Below, piece by piece: positions 11,787-22,560 of a stretch of DNA of 41,899 bases. Made by a program: the position numbers and the translations under genes. Numbering within the stretch: the stretch's first letter is position 1; each line of letters starts with the position of its first letter. Source of the stretch: an uncultured Flavobacteriaceae bacterium (lineage in GTDB: Bacteria; Bacteroidota; Bacteroidia; Flavobacteriales; Flavobacteriaceae); assembly GCA_938088195.1 (NCBI GenBank), contig CALKEO010000054.1:1-41899 (forward strand), in the 5' to 3' direction. The notes under the pieces were generated by a model. It made no database searches. It was not told the DNA's origin and saw nothing but the letters and a program-made list of their open reading frames with translations.

Positions 11787-13043
11787 ATGGGAACTTTAGA
11801 ATCTACAATTATTGAGTATCAACCCGATTTAACTAATGCTATTGATACAGTGTGGGTTGCTCTTTGTGCAGCTTTAATATTTTTTATGGAGGGTGGTTTT
11901 GCATTATTAGAATCAGGTTTTGTGAGATCTAAAAATGCAATGAGTATTATAGCAAAAGTATTTATTGATATTGTATTTGGAGGACTAATATTTTATGTAG
12001 TTGGTTTTGGAATAGCTTACGGAGCTTCCAATGGTTGGTTTGCGTTCGATTTTGGAGTTTCTGAAAATGATTTAGGTCTTGGTCTGACTGTGTCTAATCA
12101 ACTTTTTTGGTTTATCCAGTTAGGTTTTGCTATTGCTGCTATTTCAATAGTTTCAGGTGCTTTAGCTGAGCGAATGAAACTTTGGTCATATACAATTTTA
12201 GTTTTGGTTTTTTGTGGTATTATGTATCCTATGGTTGCTAATTGGGTATGGAACCCTCAAGGTTGGTTATCATCTGCCGGATTTAACGATTTTGCTGGTT
12301 CTGCTGCTGTGCATGCCATGGGAGGATTTGCTGCTCTTGCAGCGGCAATGGTACTGGGTCCAAGATTAGGAAAATATAAAGCCGATGGTAAGCCAAATAC
12401 AATTCCTGGACATAATATTCCACTAGCTGCTATAGGATGTTTTATTTTATGGTTCGGTTGGTTTGGATTTAATCCGGGATCAACTTTGGGAGCGGTCGGA
12501 AATTGGGATTTAATAGGAAAAGTAATTACTAATACTTTTTTAGCATCAGCTGCTGGAGGAATTTCAACTATGATATACACCCAATTTAGATATGGATTAA
12601 TTGACATTACAATGGTAATAAATGGAATTTTAGCGGGCTTAGTTTCTATTACAGCAGGATGTAATATTGTAGATGCATCTTCTGCTATAATAATTGGTTT
12701 GGTTGCAGGTATTTTAGTGGATGTGGCAGTTCAAGTTATTGATAAGATGAAAATTGATGACCCAGTAGGTGCTATTGCAGTTCACGGAGTTAATGGTTTT
12801 TTTGGTGCTATTGCAGTTGGTTTATTTGCTTCCGAAGAAGGATTATTATTTAGCGGAGATTCTGCTTTATTTTTGGTTCAATTAAAGGGTGTTTTAGTAA
12901 TTGCACTTTTTTCTTTTATTTTTACGTACTTGGTTATGTATTTAATGAAAAAGACTATTGGAGTAAGAATACCGGTTGAAGAAGAAAGGGTAGGGATAGA
13001 CGCTGCTTCTTTTGGGTTAGAATCGTATTCTAATTTTGAATAA
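11787..13043 (+). CDS. amt: Ammonium transporter (Amt/MEP/Rh family)
   Basis: Imports ammonium across the inner membrane as a trimer. 418 residues with about eleven hydrophobic helices. Family phrases include FFMEGGFALLESGFVRSKNA (32-51), FAGSAAVHAMGG, carrying the first pore His of the twin-His pair, and DPVGAIAVHGVNGFFGA, carrying the second. It is followed after 18 bases by a PII gene, the usual amt-glnK arrangement in which PII blocks the pore when nitrogen is plentiful. The upstream region is long and contains an inverted repeat that could be a nitrogen-responsive operator. Confidence 0.95.
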   Translation: MGTLESTIIEYQPDLTNAIDTVWVALCAALIFFMEGGFALLESGFVRSKNAMSIIAKVFIDIVFGGLIFYVVGFGIAYGASNGWFAFDFGVSENDLGLGLTVSNQLFWFIQLGFAIAAISIVSGALAERMKLWSYTILVLVFCGIMYPMVANWVWNPQGWLSSAGFNDFAGSAAVHAMGGFAALAAAMVLGPRLGKYKADGKPNTIPGHNIPLAAIGCFILWFGWFGFNPGSTLGAVGNWDLIGKVITNTFLASAAGGISTMIYTQFRYGLIDITMVINGILAGLVSITAGCNIVDASSAIIIGLVAGILVDVAVQVIDKMKIDDPVGAIAVHGVNGFFGAIAVGLFASEEGLLFSGDSALFLVQLKGVLVIALFSFIFTYLVMYLMKKTIGVRIPVEEERVGIDAASFGLESYSNFE

Positions 13044-13061
13044 TTATAAAAATTAAAATTT

Positions 13062-13919: not shown

Positions 13920-14684
13920 TTAGACAACTTCGTTAAGAACGTAATCCCATAATTTAATTCTCATTTTTAATGCCTTTTCTGATGCTATTGTCGCCTCTTC
14001 CCATTTTATTGGATCTGAACCACAAAGATTATTAATCATTTTTAAAGCCATAGGTCCATGCTCATCTGCATCCAATTCAATATGTCTTTCTAAATAATAA
14101 ATTAAAAGATCTGTTTTAATATTCTTTTCTGAGGATAATTTTTTCACAATTTCTATAAACATATCGGGAATTAAATCTTCTCTACCAAAAGTAAAAACGC
14201 TTGCTATGACATGGTTTTTATTAGTCTTTATAATATCAAAAGTAAAATCCATAAATTCTTTAACGACAGAGGGAATGTTGAATTTTTTTACACTTTCATA
14301 ATAAGATTGGCTGCTATTTATTTCTTTTATAAATTTTTTTATCAAATTAGTATTAGCGCCGAGATTTTCCATAGATTCTAAATACAATTCAAAATGACTT
14401 TTTGGGTTGTTATTCATATCTATGTCACTTTCTTCAGCTAAAACTATTTCGTTTACAAGTTTTCCAGAAAAATTATTTTGATTTGGAGTCCATGGGACAC
14501 TAGTACATGTTAAGTTTTTTTGTAAAGCTTTTATTAATGACATGAAATCCCAAACAGCAAACACGTGATTTTCCATAAAAAGAGTGATTTTTTCTTTTGT
14601 ATCAAGTGCGTGGTATAGTGGATGAGAAATTAGTTTGTTTCGAGTTGGATTTAAACTGTCCTGAAGAGCATCTATTTGAGTCAT
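13920..14684 (-). CDS. DUF3050 family protein, heme-oxygenase-like all-helical fold
   Basis: DUF3050 proteins are uncharacterised, all-helical and related to the heme-oxygenase-like superfamily. The 254 residues include the family phrase FMENHVFAVWDFMSLIKALQ (36-55), with Glu38 and His40; AEESD (83-87) and His97; FGRED (166-170); and LERHIELDADEHGPMA (198-213), with Glu199, His201, Asp205 and His209. This distribution of Glu, Asp and His over several helices is what a di-iron site in a heme-oxygenase-like oxidase would need; that role is inference. A promoter element lies just upstream, giving a single-gene unit divergent from the LysE-type gene. Confidence 0.8.
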   Translation of the reverse strand: MTQIDALQDSLNPTRNKLISHPLYHALDTKEKITLFMENHVFAVWDFMSLIKALQKNLTCTSVPWTPNQNNFSGKLVNEIVLAEESDIDMNNNPKSHFELYLESMENLGANTNLIKKFIKEINSSQSYYESVKKFNIPSVVKEFMDFTFDIIKTNKNHVIASVFTFGREDLIPDMFIEIVKKLSSEKNIKTDLLIYYLERHIELDADEHGPMALKMINNLCGSDPIKWEEATIASEKALKMRIKLWDYVLNEVV

Positions 14685-16298: not shown

Positions 16299-16322
16299 TA
16301 TCTTTATTTAGAATAATTAAAA
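16299..16322 (+). promoter_or_regulatory. Promoter-like element plus partial iron-box before the FecA-like receptor
   Basis: TATCTTTA (16299-16306) differs from TA-N2-TTTG in the last base only. It is followed at 16308-16322 by TTAGAAT-A-ATTAAAA, one perfect and one partial arm of the 7-1-7 repeat also found at 16372 and 18629. The same order (-7 element, then repeat) recurs before the iron-binding protein gene. Confidence 0.35.
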
Positions 16323-16371
16323 ATAAGCTTGTTTTATAAGTTTCTATGTCTTATTTTCACACCAAATTAAA

Positions 16372-16386
16372 TTAGAATGATTCTAA
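16372..16386. promoter_or_regulatory. Perfect 7-1-7 inverted repeat over the receptor start codon, candidate Fur-like operator
   Basis: TTAGAAT-G-ATTCTAA, a perfect palindrome with a one-base centre; the ATG of the receptor (16377) lies inside it. Each arm agrees with the Fur-box arm TGATAAT at five of seven positions. Confidence 0.45.
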
Positions 16387-18599
16387 ATAAAACAAATCAA
16401 TTTTCAAAATATTTATTTTTATTATTAACTTTTAATATTTTCTCTCAGAGCTCTGAGAAAGTGACTCTAAATGATTCAATAACCGCATTGGATGAAGTAA
16501 TCATCAAAGCCAATACTATTTTAGGTAACAAATTTGTAGCAAAAAACAGAACTGGAGCAGCATATTACCTTTCTTCCAAGGAATTGGCAAAATTTAATTA
16601 TACAGATATTAATAGAGTGTTAAATAAAATTTCTGGAATTAATTTTTATGAAGAGGATGGTTTTGGATTACGACCTAACATAAGTATTAGGGGGACATCG
16701 CCAGAAAGAAGTTCAAAAATAGCTATTATGGAAGACGGAATCCTAATTTCTCCAGCACCTTATAGTGCTTCATCTGCATATTATTTTCCATCTATTGCTA
16801 GAATGCAAGCCGTCGAAGTGTTAAAGGGTAGTAGCCAAATACAATATGGACCGTATACAACAGGTGGTGCAATAAATTTTGTTTCTACGGAAATTCCAGA
16901 ATCATTCAAAGGAAAAGTTTCTTCAAGTTACGGTAGTTTTAAAACTGGACAAACACATTTAACTCTTGGTAATAACTCTAATGATTTTGGGTATATGTTT
17001 GAATATTTAAATTATAATTCTGATGGTTTTAAAACTCTCGGAAATAATTTAAACACGGGATTTGATATAAATGAAATAACTTCAAAAATTAGATTTCAAC
17101 TATTTAAAAAAAGAAAAACTAAACAAAATTTAGAATTTAAATTTCATCATTATGATGAGATATCGAATGAAACTTATTTAGGACTTTCTGAAAATGATTT
17201 TAAAAAAAATCCTTTTCGTAGGTATCCAGGATCTGAAAAAGATAAAATGGATGCTGAACACATACAATTTCTAGTGACTCATGATTTAAATTTCAATGAG
17301 AGATTTAAAATTACAACTAATGCATATCACAATGGGTTTAAAAGAAATTGGTATAAATTGGATGACGTTGTTTTTGAAGGAAGTTCACAAAAAATTTCAA
17401 AAGTAATTTCTAATTCTCAAAATTATACTGGTCACATTTCAATCTTAAAAGGACTATCAGATTCAGAAAATGCTTTAAAAGTTAAAGCAAATAACAGAGA
17501 ATATGTTTCAAAAGGAGTTCAAACTAAAATCGATTATCATTGGTATGGAGATAACAACTCGTTTAATGATCTAGAAATTGGTTTGAGAGTTCATTACGAC
17601 GAGGAAGACAGGTTTCAATGGGAGGATGAATATTCAATAACTAACGGATCTATGTCATTAGATAGCTATGGAGAAAAAGGATCTCAAGGAAATAGAATAA
17701 GCTCGGCAAATTCTTTTGCCTCATATATTATGTACAAATATAAAATCAAAGGATTTACAGTTTCACCTGGTTTAAGATATGAATCAATAACATTAGCAAG
17801 AGATGATTTTGGAAAAAATAATCCTTCAAGAAATATAAATGATCTTTCTTCTAGAGAAAATAAAGTATCTGTATTTATCCCTGGAATTGGAGTTAATTAT
17901 ACCATAAATAATAAATTTTCAATATTTGGAGGAATACATAAAGGATATTCACCTCCAGGCAGTTCTATTGGTCAAAAATCCGAGGAGAGTTTGAATTTAG
18001 AATTAGGAGGGCGATTTTCGATAAATAGGGTAAATGCTGAAATTATCGCATATCAAAACGATTATAGCAACTTACTAGGAAATGATCTTGCAGCAACAGG
18101 TGGTTTTGGAGAGCTTGATCCATTTAATGCTGGAAAAGCTTTGGTTAATGGATTAGAAATATTACTGACATCTGATTTTGTTGAGAATAAAAATATTTCT
18201 GTTCCCTTTTCATTAACATATACTCTTACTAATTCTAAATTCTTGACTGATTTTGGAAGTACTCAAGACATTTGGGGAGAAGTAAGTTATGGCGATAGAA
18301 TTCCATATATTCCACAACATCAATTGAATTCAAATATTGGTATCAAAACAAATAAATTTGAAATTAATTTTAATGGAAATTATAATGGAAAATTCTCAAC
18401 TATAGCTGATGGTTCAGTTGAAATTCCATCATATTTTATTTTTGATATTTCTTTTAAATATAAAGTTCGATCAGGAATAACTTACACATCTAAAATAATT
18501 AATTTATTTGATGAAAAATATGCTGTTTCGAGAGCTCCTGCTGGATTAAGACCAGGACATCCATTTGGAATTTATACTGGTTTAGAATACAAATTTTAA
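16377..18599 (+). CDS. TonB-dependent outer-membrane receptor, FecA-like (ferric siderophore or citrate)
   Basis: Imports ferric chelates through the outer membrane using TonB energy. 740 residues: signal peptide (about 1-24), a stretch resembling a TonB box (LDEVIIKAN), a plug domain with RGTSPERSSKIAIMEDGI and VEVLKGSSQIQYGPYTTGGAINFVST, then a 22-strand-type barrel ending in aromatic Phe (GLEYKF). The plug phrase QYGPYTTGGAINFVS is close to FecA-type receptors. Unlike the receptor at 38.8 kb, it lacks the carboxypeptidase-like N-terminal domain. Directly downstream is a complete ferric ABC transporter. A palindromic candidate iron operator covers its start codon. Confidence 0.92.
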   Translation: MILNKTNQFSKYLFLLLTFNIFSQSSEKVTLNDSITALDEVIIKANTILGNKFVAKNRTGAAYYLSSKELAKFNYTDINRVLNKISGINFYEEDGFGLRPNISIRGTSPERSSKIAIMEDGILISPAPYSASSAYYFPSIARMQAVEVLKGSSQIQYGPYTTGGAINFVSTEIPESFKGKVSSSYGSFKTGQTHLTLGNNSNDFGYMFEYLNYNSDGFKTLGNNLNTGFDINEITSKIRFQLFKKRKTKQNLEFKFHHYDEISNETYLGLSENDFKKNPFRRYPGSEKDKMDAEHIQFLVTHDLNFNERFKITTNAYHNGFKRNWYKLDDVVFEGSSQKISKVISNSQNYTGHISILKGLSDSENALKVKANNREYVSKGVQTKIDYHWYGDNNSFNDLEIGLRVHYDEEDRFQWEDEYSITNGSMSLDSYGEKGSQGNRISSANSFASYIMYKYKIKGFTVSPGLRYESITLARDDFGKNNPSRNINDLSSRENKVSVFIPGIGVNYTINNKFSIFGGIHKGYSPPGSSIGQKSEESLNLELGGRFSINRVNAEIIAYQNDYSNLLGNDLAATGGFGELDPFNAGKALVNGLEILLTSDFVENKNISVPFSLTYTLTNSKFLTDFGSTQDIWGEVSYGDRIPYIPQHQLNSNIGIKTNKFEINFNGNYNGKFSTIADGSVEIPSYFIFDISFKYKVRSGITYTSKIINLFDEKYAVSRAPAGLRPGHPFGIYTGLEYKF

Positions 18600-18617
18600 A
18601 AAATTAATTGTTTTATC

Positions 18618-18643
18618 TATCTTGCAGTTTAGAATTAATCTAA
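18618..18643 (+). promoter_or_regulatory. Promoter-like element plus 7-1-7 inverted repeat before the iron-binding protein gene
   Basis: TATCTTG (18618-18624, one T short of TA-N2-TTTG) is followed by TTAGAAT-T-AATCTAA (18629-18643). This differs from the site at 16372 at the centre and one arm position. It would sit across the transcription start, a natural place for a repressor. Confidence 0.4.
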
Positions 18644-18655
18644 ATAACAAATAAA

Positions 18656-19684
18656 ATGAAAAATATATTTTATACACTTATAATCTGCTCTTTATTTTTT
18701 AGCTGTGATAAAAAAGAAAAAAAATCAAATGAAGTTAATTTGTACAGTCAAAGACATTACTCTGTGGATGAATTGCAGTACGAAAATTTTACTAAATTAA
18801 CTGGAATAAAAGTCAATGTAATCAAAGCTAATGCGGATGAATTAATTGAAAGGTTGAAAAATGAAGGCGATAAAAGTCCTGCAGATTTATTTATATCAGT
18901 TGATGCTGGAAAATTACAAAGAGCTGCTGATCTTAACCTACTTCAAAAAGTTTCTAATTCAACAATTAACACCAATGTTTCAAAAGATCTCATTGATATA
19001 AATGGGTATTGGACTCCAATTACATATAGAGCCAGAATAATAGTTTACAGTAATGATAGAGTTAATAAAAGTGATCTCTCTACTTATGAAGATTTAGCAA
19101 ATGAAAAATGGAAGGGAAGAATACTCGTAAGATCATCTTCAAATGCATATAATCAAGCGCTAATGTCATCAATAGTAGCTAATTTAGGAAGTGATGTAGC
19201 CAATGATTGGTCTGAAGGGGTGGTTAAAAATTTTGCGCGTGATCCTAAGGGAAGTGATAGAGATCAGGTTAAGGCAATTGCAGCTGGTCAAGGAGATATA
19301 GCAATTGTGAATTCTTATTATATTGGACTCCTTTTATCATCCCAAAAAGAGGAAGAACTTGATGCTGGAAGATCAGTGTCGGTATTTTTTCCAAATCAAG
19401 GAGATAACGAAAGAGGAAGTCATATAAATGTCTCTGGGATTGGGCTGGCAAAATATTCTCCAAATAAGGAGAATGCGATTAAATTAATGGAATACTTAAC
19501 TAGTGAAGAAGCACAAAATACATATGTTAATAATAGTTATGAATATGCAGCTAATCCTAATGTAAAGCCTTCAAAAATTGTACAAGACTGGGGTACATTT
19601 AAAACAGATAAATTAGATCTTAATATGCTTGGAAAATTTAGAGAAGAAGCAATACGTATTTTTGATAAAACAGGTTGGAAATAA
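18656..19684 (+). CDS. Ferric-iron ABC transporter, substrate-binding lipoprotein (FbpA/FutA type)
   Basis: Captures Fe3+ and hands it to the permease. 342 residues with a lipoprotein signal (LFFSCDKK, lipidated Cys about 17), appropriate for anchoring in the inner membrane. The mature part follows the iron-binding class of periplasmic proteins: VNLYSQRHYSVDELQYENF at the start, PADLFISVDAGKLQRAADLNLLQ, GYWTPITYRARIIVY, NSYYIGLLLS with the paired Tyr that usually contact iron, and GSHINVSGIGLAKYSPN. The gene overlaps the permease gene by 10 bases and is the first gene of fbpABC. Confidence 0.93.
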   Translation: MKNIFYTLIICSLFFSCDKKEKKSNEVNLYSQRHYSVDELQYENFTKLTGIKVNVIKANADELIERLKNEGDKSPADLFISVDAGKLQRAADLNLLQKVSNSTINTNVSKDLIDINGYWTPITYRARIIVYSNDRVNKSDLSTYEDLANEKWKGRILVRSSSNAYNQALMSSIVANLGSDVANDWSEGVVKNFARDPKGSDRDQVKAIAAGQGDIAIVNSYYIGLLLSSQKEEELDAGRSVSVFFPNQGDNERGSHINVSGIGLAKYSPNKENAIKLMEYLTSEEAQNTYVNNSYEYAANPNVKPSKIVQDWGTFKTDKLDLNMLGKFREEAIRIFDKTGWK

Positions 19685-21288
19685 TAAACAAAAATTTTTA
19701 TTTAGAAAATAAAAGATGGGTAATTGGAAGTGTAATTTTTGCAATATTATTGTTACTTCCAATTTTTACTCTTTTTTACAAACTTATATATATAAAGGGT
19801 AATTCTTTCAATTATTTATGGGAAAACATTTTATTTGAATATACTTTTAATACATTTTATTTAATAATAATTACTTCTTTTTTTTCTCTTTTATTTGGAG
19901 TTATTCCGGCCTGGTTTATTAGTAACTATAGATTTAAAGGACGTAATTTTCTGGATATTGCTTTGTATCTACCCTTAGCAATTCCCTCATATATTATGGC
20001 CTTTACTTACAGCGATATATTAAGTTATACTGGACCTTTTCAAAGTTTTTTAAGAAAAAACTTTAATGATTTGTCTGTTATCTTTAATCAGGACTATTTA
20101 CAGATTGAGGTTTTAGGAATCATTCTAGCTTTAGCTTTATATCCATATATATATACTGCTTGTAGAGTTTCATTTAGTTTGCTAGGAACAAATTATATAG
20201 ATATTTCTAAAAATTTAGGTTTATCAACCTTTAAGACATTTTATAAAATCATCTTACCTCTGTCTAGACCAGCAATTTTTTCTGGTTTATTTTTAGTTTT
20301 AATGGAAGTTTTAAATGAATATGGTGCGGTTAAATACTTTGGAGTCAACACCTATACAACCGGTATTTTTAGAGCATGGTTATCTATGGGTGATGTTGGT
20401 ACTGCTATTCAACTTTCTGTTATATTATTATTGGTTGTTTTTATGTTTTTTTACATCGAAAAATATTATCATTCTACAATAAAATTCTATTATGGAACCA
20501 ATTCAAAAATTCAAACTTTACAAGGATTGGATGGCTTTAAAAAAATTACAGCCATTTTAGTTTGTTTTTTTCCTTTTTTAATTGGTTTTTTAATTCCAGT
20601 TGTTTTTATTTTAAACAATGTTTTCTTGACTTTTTCTCAGGTTGATTTTAATGATTTATTAGAACTAACTTATAATACTATTAAAGTGTCTAGTGTTTCG
20701 GCTTTTTTAATAGTTGTAATTGCATTATTTTTTCTCTTTGTAGAAAAGATTTCAAAAACTCGAATAAATTATTATATAAGTCAATCGATTTCAATGGGAT
20801 ATGCTATTCCAGGAGCAGTTATTGGATTAGGCTTAATTATGCTATTCACTTATATTGACAAGACATTTTCTTCTGCCTTTCTAGGTTCTTTTTTTCTTCT
20901 AATATACGCATATATAGTTAGATTTTTAGCAGTTGGAAAATCTCCAATAAAATCCAGTCTAGAAAAACATCCTGACTCATATGATGATACTGCTAAAAGT
21001 TTAGGTTTAGGTCCTTTTAAACTTTTAAGAAAAATCCATTTACCAATAAATAAGTTGGCATTGACAACAGCTTTTATTGTTACTTTTATTGACCTTATGA
21101 AAGAGCTGCCCATTACACTGATTCTGAGACCTTTTAATTTTGATACCTTAGCTACGCAAACTTACGAGTTTGCAATTGAAGAAATGATACCATTATCCAG
21201 TATTTATTCTCTCATGATTATTTTAATTGGTAGTTTGTTATTATTAATTTTAAAAAATGTTATTAATAAGCAGTTAAATGTATCTTGA
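19675..21288 (+). CDS. Ferric-iron ABC transporter permease (FbpB type, duplicated permease domain)
   Basis: Inner-membrane permease of 537 residues with about twelve helices made of two homologous halves, typical of iron FbpB proteins. Each half has its own ATPase-coupling loop: DISKNLGLSTFKTFYKIILP in the first and DTAKSLGLGPFKLLRKIHLP in the second. Start is TTG at 19675, inside the end of the binding-protein gene; the first residues are MEIINKNFYLENKRW and no ATG lies between there and the first helix. It overlaps the ATPase gene by 11 bases, so all three should be translated from one message. Confidence 0.93.
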   Translation: MEIINKNFYLENKRWVIGSVIFAILLLLPIFTLFYKLIYIKGNSFNYLWENILFEYTFNTFYLIIITSFFSLLFGVIPAWFISNYRFKGRNFLDIALYLPLAIPSYIMAFTYSDILSYTGPFQSFLRKNFNDLSVIFNQDYLQIEVLGIILALALYPYIYTACRVSFSLLGTNYIDISKNLGLSTFKTFYKIILPLSRPAIFSGLFLVLMEVLNEYGAVKYFGVNTYTTGIFRAWLSMGDVGTAIQLSVILLLVVFMFFYIEKYYHSTIKFYYGTNSKIQTLQGLDGFKKITAILVCFFPFLIGFLIPVVFILNNVFLTFSQVDFNDLLELTYNTIKVSSVSAFLIVVIALFFLFVEKISKTRINYYISQSISMGYAIPGAVIGLGLIMLFTYIDKTFSSAFLGSFFLLIYAYIVRFLAVGKSPIKSSLEKHPDSYDDTAKSLGLGPFKLLRKIHLPINKLALTTAFIVTFIDLMKELPITLILRPFNFDTLATQTYEFAIEEMIPLSSIYSLMIILIGSLLLLILKNVINKQLNVS

Positions 21289-22240
21289 AGTAAAAAACTT
21301 AGTAAAATATTACAGTGAAAATAATCCTGTAATTAAGAAATTAAACTTTTCAGTAAAAAAAGGCGAGATTATATCTTTTCTTGGTGAGAGTGGTTCTGGA
21401 AAAACAACCTTTTTAAAATGTATTTCTGGACTAGAAAAAATTAATTCAGGATCAATTTCATTAAACAATAATATACTTAACGATAATAATACTTTTATAA
21501 AACCACAAAACAGAAAAATTGGTTTTGTATTTCAAGATTATCCGCTTTTTCCTCATTTAAATTTAATTGATAATATTACCTTCAATTTAAAACCCAAGTA
21601 CTTTAAAAAACTAGATTACATGATATCTTTAACAGGCTTAGAAAGTTTGTTGATGAGATATCCTCACGAACTCTCAGGAGGTGAACAACAAAGAGCGTGC
21701 ATAGCAAGAGCTCTAATCAGGGAGCCAGATCTACTTTTGTTAGATGAACCATTTAGTAATCTAGATTCTAATATCAAACTCTCCATGAGAGATGAAATCT
21801 ATAAAATCATTAAAGAGACCAAAACAACTACTATTCTAGTAACTCATGACATTAACGATTCTTTAAATATCGCTGATAGAATATTAATTTTCAAAGCTGG
21901 TGTATTACAACAATATGGAGACCCTGTTAACATGTATTGTGAACCAGCTAATTGTTATTGCGCAAAGGTTTTGGGTGATTTAAACCAACTAGAAATTGAG
22001 GATAAAACTTATTACATTAGACCTGAAAAAATTAAAATTGTTGAAGATTCAAATTTTAAAATTCTTGTTGAAAAGTGCTTTTTTCAGGGTAAAGAATATA
22101 AAATTTTCGGAACTTTAAATGGTTATAAGTGGCAATTCTTCTCCAAAAAACCTTTGAATAAAAATGAGCAGATTTCAATAGATTACAGTTCGGAGGATTT
22201 AATATTTTTTGATTCATTTTGTAATAATTTTTTCGTGTAA
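21278..22240 (+). CDS. Ferric-iron ABC transporter ATPase (FbpC type)
   Basis: Powers iron import with the preceding permease. 320 residues. Walker A GESGSGKTT (36-44), Q-loop VFQDYPLFPHL (84-94), signature LSGGEQQR (132-139), Walker B LLLLDEP (152-158), D-loop SNLDS and switch His in VTHD. After residue 225 comes a C-terminal regulatory domain (IRPEKIKIV and later) typical of the importer subfamily that includes PotA, CysA and FbpC. ATG 21278 overlaps the permease end. It is the last gene of the iron transporter unit. Confidence 0.94.
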   Translation: MYLEVKNLVKYYSENNPVIKKLNFSVKKGEIISFLGESGSGKTTFLKCISGLEKINSGSISLNNNILNDNNTFIKPQNRKIGFVFQDYPLFPHLNLIDNITFNLKPKYFKKLDYMISLTGLESLLMRYPHELSGGEQQRACIARALIREPDLLLLDEPFSNLDSNIKLSMRDEIYKIIKETKTTTILVTHDINDSLNIADRILIFKAGVLQQYGDPVNMYCEPANCYCAKVLGDLNQLEIEDKTYYIRPEKIKIVEDSNFKILVEKCFFQGKEYKIFGTLNGYKWQFFSKKPLNKNEQISIDYSSEDLIFFDSFCNNFFV

Positions 22241-22258
22241 TAATTGTTTGCGTAAAAT

Positions 22259-22273
22259 TTAAATTCATTCTAA
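22259..22273. promoter_or_regulatory. Imperfect 7-1-7 repeat upstream of the Cys-rich gene
   Basis: TTAAATT-C-ATTCTAA: the right arm is identical to the site at 16372 and the left arm matches at five of seven positions. It lies 14 bases upstream of the -7 element at 22287. Weak alone; notable because it recurs beside the iron genes. Confidence 0.3.
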
Positions 22274-22286
22274 ACTAACTTTCATA

Positions 22287-22294
22287 TACTTTTG
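22287..22294 (+). promoter_or_regulatory. Putative -7 promoter element for the Cys-rich protein gene (TACTTTTG)
   Basis: Exact TA-N2-TTTG match 31 bases before the ATG at 22318. It implies the Cys-rich gene has its own transcript separate from the iron ABC genes. Confidence 0.5.
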
Positions 22295-22317: not shown

Positions 22318-22560
22318 ATGAGTTTAAGAACTAATAATACCTGTTTAAATTGCGAAAATTTAATTAATAATCTGACCTGTTCAAAACACCAGACAGAAGT
22401 GGATATTTTAAATGTGTGTGACAGTCATTCATACAAAGATGTTTTTTCTAAGCAATCTAATTGTACGAATTGTAGTTCATTTAATTTAAGTTCTTGTAGT
22501 CATCCTAATTCTGCGTCCAAAGGAATGCTATGTTTTGATTGGCAACCGTCTATCGTTTAA
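22318..22560 (+). CDS. Small duplicated 8-Cys protein, probable metal-binding
   Basis: No characterised family recognised. 80 residues with no signal peptide or membrane helix, so cytoplasmic. Eight Cys fall into two matching halves: CLNC-x8-CSKH...VCD (Cys9, 12, 21, 34) and CTNC-x7-CSHP...LCFDW (Cys49, 52, 60, 72). Each half has CxxC, a third Cys followed within three residues by His, and a terminal Cys before Asp. That could bind one zinc or iron per half in a rubredoxin or zinc-ribbon manner (inference). It lies 77 bases after the ferric ABC operon, with its own promoter and a partial copy of the putative iron operator upstream. Confidence 0.8.
   Translation: MSLRTNNTCLNCENLINNLTCSKHQTEVDILNVCDSHSYKDVFSKQSNCTNCSSFNLSSCSHPNSASKGMLCFDWQPSIV

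Follow-up and report, generated by a model that had tools for sequence, protein, structure and literature searches.

The Fur box of the duck pathogen Riemerella anatipestifer, also a flavobacterium, was predicted as ATTTAGAATTATTCTAAAT, and in electrophoretic mobility shift assays its purified Fur retarded promoter fragments carrying predicted boxes (PMC5609570). Fur-dependent repression and Mn-dependent binding of Fur at an iron-uptake promoter are also known from R. anatipestifer, from a study that quotes as its box a sequence of the classical E. coli type (PMC7976709). That classical box, TGATAAT-N-ATTATCA, described in E. coli and B. subtilis, has an odd dyad geometry that is shared by the PerR box, TTATAAT-N-ATTATAA. 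The operators of the DtxR/MntR/IdeR type, TTTAGG-N4-CCTAAA, are instead evenly spaced around a GG/CC core. The palindromes described here lie in a stretch of 41,899 nucleotides (hereafter the window), which is contig 54 of an uncultured Flavobacteriaceae assembly of 1.53 Mb in 70 contigs, 80% complete; its closest named relatives are marine Flavobacteriaceae/Cryomorphaceae metagenome assemblies. Their consensus is identical to that of the Riemerella box, with the same 7-1-7 core and the same outer bases, and, like the receptor operator in the window, the Riemerella box occurs near the start codon of TonB-receptor genes (PMC5609570). The two differ in host lineage and in target range, since the box predicted here additionally precedes a ferric ABC operon and a Cys-rich gene. 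Compared with the classical Fur box, the geometry and, as the original prediction held, five of seven arm positions are retained, while T replaces G at arm position 2 and G replaces T at position 4. The TTAGAAT arm thus lowers membership of the classical box and not of the flavobacterial one, with which the known Riemerella form makes it compatible. An E. coli-type Fur box as the better description was rejected, as its pattern did not rise above the reversed control at fbpA promoters.

The window sites are accordingly best described as predicted Fur operators of the flavobacterial type already known from Riemerella, and it is very probable, judging by sequence and conservation, that they serve as such in this lineage of marine Flavobacteriia. 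The Fur-family assignment made originally draws support from the identity with the Riemerella box, from conservation before orthologous genes and from the iron-gene targets of the strong sites; the accompanying description of the sequence as lineage-specific was too narrow, given that Riemerella shares the box. What is added here is the full operator length, a fourth site with its Cys-rich gene, evidence against an MntR-type regulator, a residue-level account of the box and a candidate wider regulon. Over much of the ocean it is iron that limits growth, and most of the abundant marine Bacteroidota have yet to be cultured; with a reliable Fur box, their iron regulon could be read from genomes and metagenomes. 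The operator also connects iron starvation with a conserved but uncharacterised Cys-rich protein, and the analysis raises two testable ideas, that two recognition-helix residues set the Fur box and that Fur controls iron-rich respiration.

The iron gene cluster begins with a TonB-dependent receptor, a 740-codon ORF on the + strand (16377-18599) that a family search finds siderophore-receptor-like, yet with a score under the curated cut-off. It is followed on the same strand by a ferric-iron binding lipoprotein of the FutA/FbpA type (18656-19684), by a ferric transporter permease (19675-21288) and by the transporter ATPase (21278-22240), the latter two assigned by family search. The binding protein, assigned by family and structure-database matches, hits solved iron-binding proteins at E=1.6e-96 (6g7n) and E=2.1e-90 (2pt1). 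These matches justify the term "iron-uptake unit", which the original prediction applied to both loci, for the binding-protein gene; for the receptor the score stays below the cut-off. Near these genes, a DUF3050 protein (13920-14684) gives a weak match to haem-oxygenase-like iron enzymes.

Two operators belong to the receptor, both placed by sequence, alignment and window scan. Operator A (16304-16326; core TTAGAAT-A-ATTAAAA, 16308-16322) is the half-conserved copy noted before; in the source genome its left arm alone is intact, and relatives carry a fuller form (TTTATTTAGACTAATTATAAATAA). Operator B (16368-16390; core TTAGAAT-G-ATTCTAA, 16372-16386) is a perfect 7-1-7 palindrome, present over the start codon exactly as predicted: it spans the ATG at 16377-16379, and its central G16379 is the G of that ATG. 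The operator of the ferric transporter operon (18625-18647; core TTAGAAT-T-AATCTAA, 18629-18643) is backed by conservation and has one broken pair; it too was correctly placed, after the -7-like element TATCTTGC (18618-18625, + strand) of the iron-binding protein gene, an element recognised by sequence and alignment and kept in near relatives. The fourth operator (22255-22277; core 22259-22273, TTAGAATGAATTTAA on the - strand), found by window scan and conservation, had been missed and is an addition of the present analysis. It occupies the interval from the transporter operon to guaB and precedes an 80-aa Cys-rich ORF (22318-22560, + strand) whose -7 element TACTTTTG (22287-22294, + strand, from sequence) lies just 3' of the operator.

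Could such sites arise by chance in AT-rich DNA, or reflect RNA hairpins rather than protein-binding sites? The genome is indeed AT-rich and weak matches are common: the 15-mer at ≤3 mismatches is no more frequent in the window than in shuffles (64 vs 59), so such weak matches are noise. The strong matches, however, exceed shuffles. The core at ≤1 mismatch occurs twice in the window against 0.13 expected, a number reached in 0 of 100 shuffles, and a 19-bp form at ≤3 mismatches yields five sites against 0.60 expected and a shuffle maximum of 3. Four of the five fall within the iron gene cluster; the fifth, a weak match at 13033-13051 at the amtB/glnB junction, was considered as an operator and is probably chance. 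The operators are, moreover, conserved amid drifting intergenic flanks, and the sites at nqrA and actA discussed below, 55-67 bp upstream of their -7 elements, would lie outside their transcripts. Chance similarity or an RNA hairpin is therefore hardly credible as an account of these sites.

Conservation was followed in two sets, a genus set of 22 genomes including the source, in which fbpA orthologues occur in 14 and the receptor in 6, and a public fbpA/futA set of 77 usable loci from 80 relatives, scanned within 250 bp of fbpA. In the public set, TTTAGAATNATTCTAAA is found at ≤2 mismatches upstream of 49 of 77 fbpA loci, five times perfectly, while the reversed pattern is found at 0/77; 13 of the 77 have no operator at ≤3 mismatches. 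Upstream of the receptor the operator recurs at ≤2 mismatches in 20 of 24 loci (reversed control 0). Genus alignments show GTTTAGAATTAATCTAAATAA retained at fbpA, and TTTATTTAGAATAATTAAAAATAA and TTAGAATGATTCTAAAT at the receptor, amid drifting flanks, and in G008 and G019, where receptor and fbpA are divergent instead of tandem, both operators are still there. As the loci are related, the counts are not independent trials, and flank divergence is the stronger argument. An exact 15-mer search across the genus returned two sites only, which shows that a search for this operator must tolerate mismatches.

A de novo search for 6-bp dyads in 58 non-redundant fbpA upstream regions placed TTTAGA-N5-TCTAAA at the top (28/58; shuffle maximum 4), which bears out the odd-centred inverted repeat of the predicted 7-1-7 form. 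The conserved palindrome is nevertheless longer. The next-ranked dyads are outer frames of the top one, out to TTATTT-N11-AAATAA (25/58), and information across relatives reaches 11-1-11. From these alignments and dyads, the full operator reads as an 11-1-11 palindrome of about 23 bp, TTATTTAGAAT-N-ATTCTAAATAA, around the core TTTAGAATNATTCTAAA.

The placement of these operators relative to promoters suggests how they might work. The original prediction took TATCTTTA (16299-16306), 5' of the receptor, as the receptor's -7-like element with operator A just after it. The TTTA in TATCTTTA is part of the outer arm of the operator, and TATCTTTA is on that ground demoted: the -7 element is probably TATTTTCA (16352-16359, + strand), proposed from sequence and alignment, lying between operators A and B and conserved in relatives as TAnnTTYG, with a possible -33 candidate, TTG, at 16329-16331. 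The receptor would then have one operator 5' and one 3' of its likely promoter. At fbpA and at mrp, the operator centre lies 18-19 bp past the first base of the -7 element, a position that argues for repression, as Fur bound there would overlie the start of transcription. Under iron sufficiency, a Fur dimer loaded with metal would occupy DNA overlapping or flanking the -7 element, so that the receptor, the ferric transporter operon and the small Cys-rich gene would stay silent; under iron shortage, Fur would come off and these genes would be transcribed.

The identity of the regulator comes from relatives. A Fur-family gene is present in all 21 genus relatives, with the order relA-fur-purA in the nine canonical loci read. 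In the source assembly (80% complete) no fur was found, and by family search purA is missing too; the absence of both points to an assembly gap. The relA-fur-purA DNA used as query gave no match in the source genome, although a nucleotide search may miss diverged DNA. We infer from the relatives that the source organism's own Fur binds these predicted sites, with iron as the signal. One relative, G007, has a second Fur-family gene (L029, G007:C74), whose helix is the canonical ATVYRT; the contig is short and may be a contaminant of that assembly.

A different repressor deserves consideration at this point, for the source genome does contain a DtxR/MntR-type gene (G000:C41:8795-9448), whereas it lacks fur, and the half-site TTAG/CTAA is alike. 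The promoter of this gene contains TTTTTAGATTAATCTAAAAA, which shares its outer bases with the window operators, and DtxR/MntR/IdeR operators in general share the outer TTTAG/CTAAA. Spacing separates the two. The gene's own operator is evenly spaced, TTTAGN-N4-NCTAAA, becoming TTTAGGTAAGCCTAAA in relatives, and is found here solely before the MntR-type gene; an even-spaced box occurs at ≤2 mismatches in 0/77 fbpA promoters. The gene itself is present in only 12 of the 22 genomes, and fbpA-bearing G004, G007, G014, G015 and G019 have no match, though these genomes are incomplete. A DtxR/MntR operator, TTTAGG-N4-CCTAAA, is thus rejected for the window sites on its even spacing, and the repressor is a poor rival with little prospect of being the regulator. 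The differing spacing assigns the gap-5 sites to Fur and, presumably, the gap-4 site to the MntR-type protein. In relatives, the MntR/DtxR-type gene stands beside a ZIP-like transporter, with an even-spaced TTTAGGTAAGCCTAAA-like operator (L028:1700-1745; upstream of dtxR, L177-L188).

A closer question is whether a Fur-family protein acts here on another signal, as a PerR-like peroxide or Zur-like zinc sensor. The recognition helix of the genus Fur reads SRATLYN, compared with SIATVYR in solved Fur, that is, Asn for Arg57 and Arg for Ile52 in solved-Fur numbering. The same Asn/Arg pair distinguishes PerR (Asn) from Fur (Arg) in box choice in B. subtilis, so that the genus protein has at this residue the Asn typical of PerR (PMC8638851). 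The operator arm matches the PerR box, of the same geometry, at six of seven positions, against five of seven for the Fur box. It departs from the PerR box in its G at arm position 4 and is known here from iron genes, whereas a PerR operator is expected at peroxide-defence genes. The PerR pattern TTATAATNATTATAA is slightly above control at fbpA promoters, an excess due to its overlap with the present motif. By alignment, the genus protein has a Fur-type Glu in its VIEF motif, at what we take to be the Fur/PerR sensing position. PerR has Asp there (PMC8638851). HMM scores of the genus protein are higher for Fur than for PerR, the sites lie at iron-uptake, flavodoxin and Fe-S genes, and in Riemerella a Fur with this box takes part in iron regulation (PMC5609570). 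Another signal is thus improbable, and iron-sensing Fur is the preferred reading.

The helix may also explain the altered box. In the solved complex of Magnetospirillum Fur with DNA, a conserved guanine is read by Arg57, and no binding is left after the substitution R57A (PMC4506495). Asn in place of this guanine-reading Arg may explain why arm position 2 no longer has G, and we infer that the replacement accounts for the second-base change from TGATAAT to TTAGAAT. More speculatively, the new Arg of the helix might read the new G at arm position 4.

Beyond the window, the 19-bp pattern at ≤3 mismatches occurs 607 times across the 22 genomes and its reversed control 398 times (hand-summed), so that most weak genome-wide matches are noise. 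Better matches behave differently: of the source genome's nine sites at ≤2 mismatches, eight fall between genes or on a start codon, whereas at 3 mismatches 6 of 25 do so, and the best site per relative recurs before orthologous genes. The strongest genus sites precede Fe-S, haem, flavodoxin and iron-rich respiratory genes, and the equal frequency before unrelated genes that the original prediction had named as counting against it is not seen for strong sites. A multihaem cytochrome c gene, probably encoding ActA of alternative complex III as read from its sequence rather than from a family match, has the site in five relatives and the source genome (L083, G000:C37:70276-70294; L062, L067, L071, L073, L077), and its conservation runs past the operator (AAAATTAGAT), which suggests a second factor. 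A site between the divergent nqrA and T9SS plug genes is found in four relatives and the source (L082, G000:C4:44287-44305; L064, L068, L072, L075); some T9SS components are among the Fur-regulated processes of Riemerella (PMC5609570). An Mrp/NBP35-type Fe-S carrier gene has the operator directly 3' of its -7 element TATATTTG in five relatives (L061, L066, L069, L070, L081). A variant ATTTAGAACNNTTCTAAAT-like palindrome lies between hemA and a divergent AraC-family regulator in two relatives and the source (L086, G000:C31:4280-4298; L065, L076), and in one relative the best site precedes a flavodoxin gene.

Strong sites before iron-using enzymes, such as nqrA and the multihaem cytochrome, count against simple iron-dependent repression, which would not predict them. 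Their position differs as well: the nqrA operator lies 55-56 or 66-67 bp, two spacings about one helical turn apart, upstream of an exact TAnnTTTG -7 element, and the actA operator 55-56 bp upstream of another. Such positions would fit activation, though upstream sites can equally serve the divergent gene. A literature search for Fur-regulated nqr in Bacteroidota found nothing useful. A wider scheme, which we put forward tentatively and consider rather unlikely in full, gives a single Fur with an altered helix two roles in streamlined marine flavobacteria. Reading a shifted guanine, it would act as repressor of iron uptake, flavodoxin and Mrp where its site coincides with or closely follows the -7 element, and as activator of the nqr and alternative complex III operons where its site is 55-67 bp upstream of that element.

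The gene behind the fourth operator was absent from the list of ORFs of 100 aa because it is too short. It is found in 30 loci (the window and relatives), in five of them as a short form of about 40 aa, and a Fur-type operator lies upstream in each, at ≤3 mismatches in 30/30 and at ≤2 in 24/30 (reversed control 0). Residues C9, C12, C21, H24, C34, H37, C49, C52, C60 and C72 are invariant. The protein matched no Pfam or NCBIfam family, and with a mean pLDDT of 42 for its predicted structure no fold is claimed.

Two further sequences were observed along the way. ATTCAGAATCATTCCAAAT lies at an ORF end 96 bp before an sdhC-like start (L088, G000:C37:33582-33600), and the same sequence in G002 and G003 may reflect coding conservation. 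Some 55 bp ahead of fbpA, the verrucomicrobial relatives L169 and L172 have TTATTGAGAT(T)G(C/T)TTCTCAATAA, which combines the gap-5 geometry with another half-site and is perhaps their Fur box.
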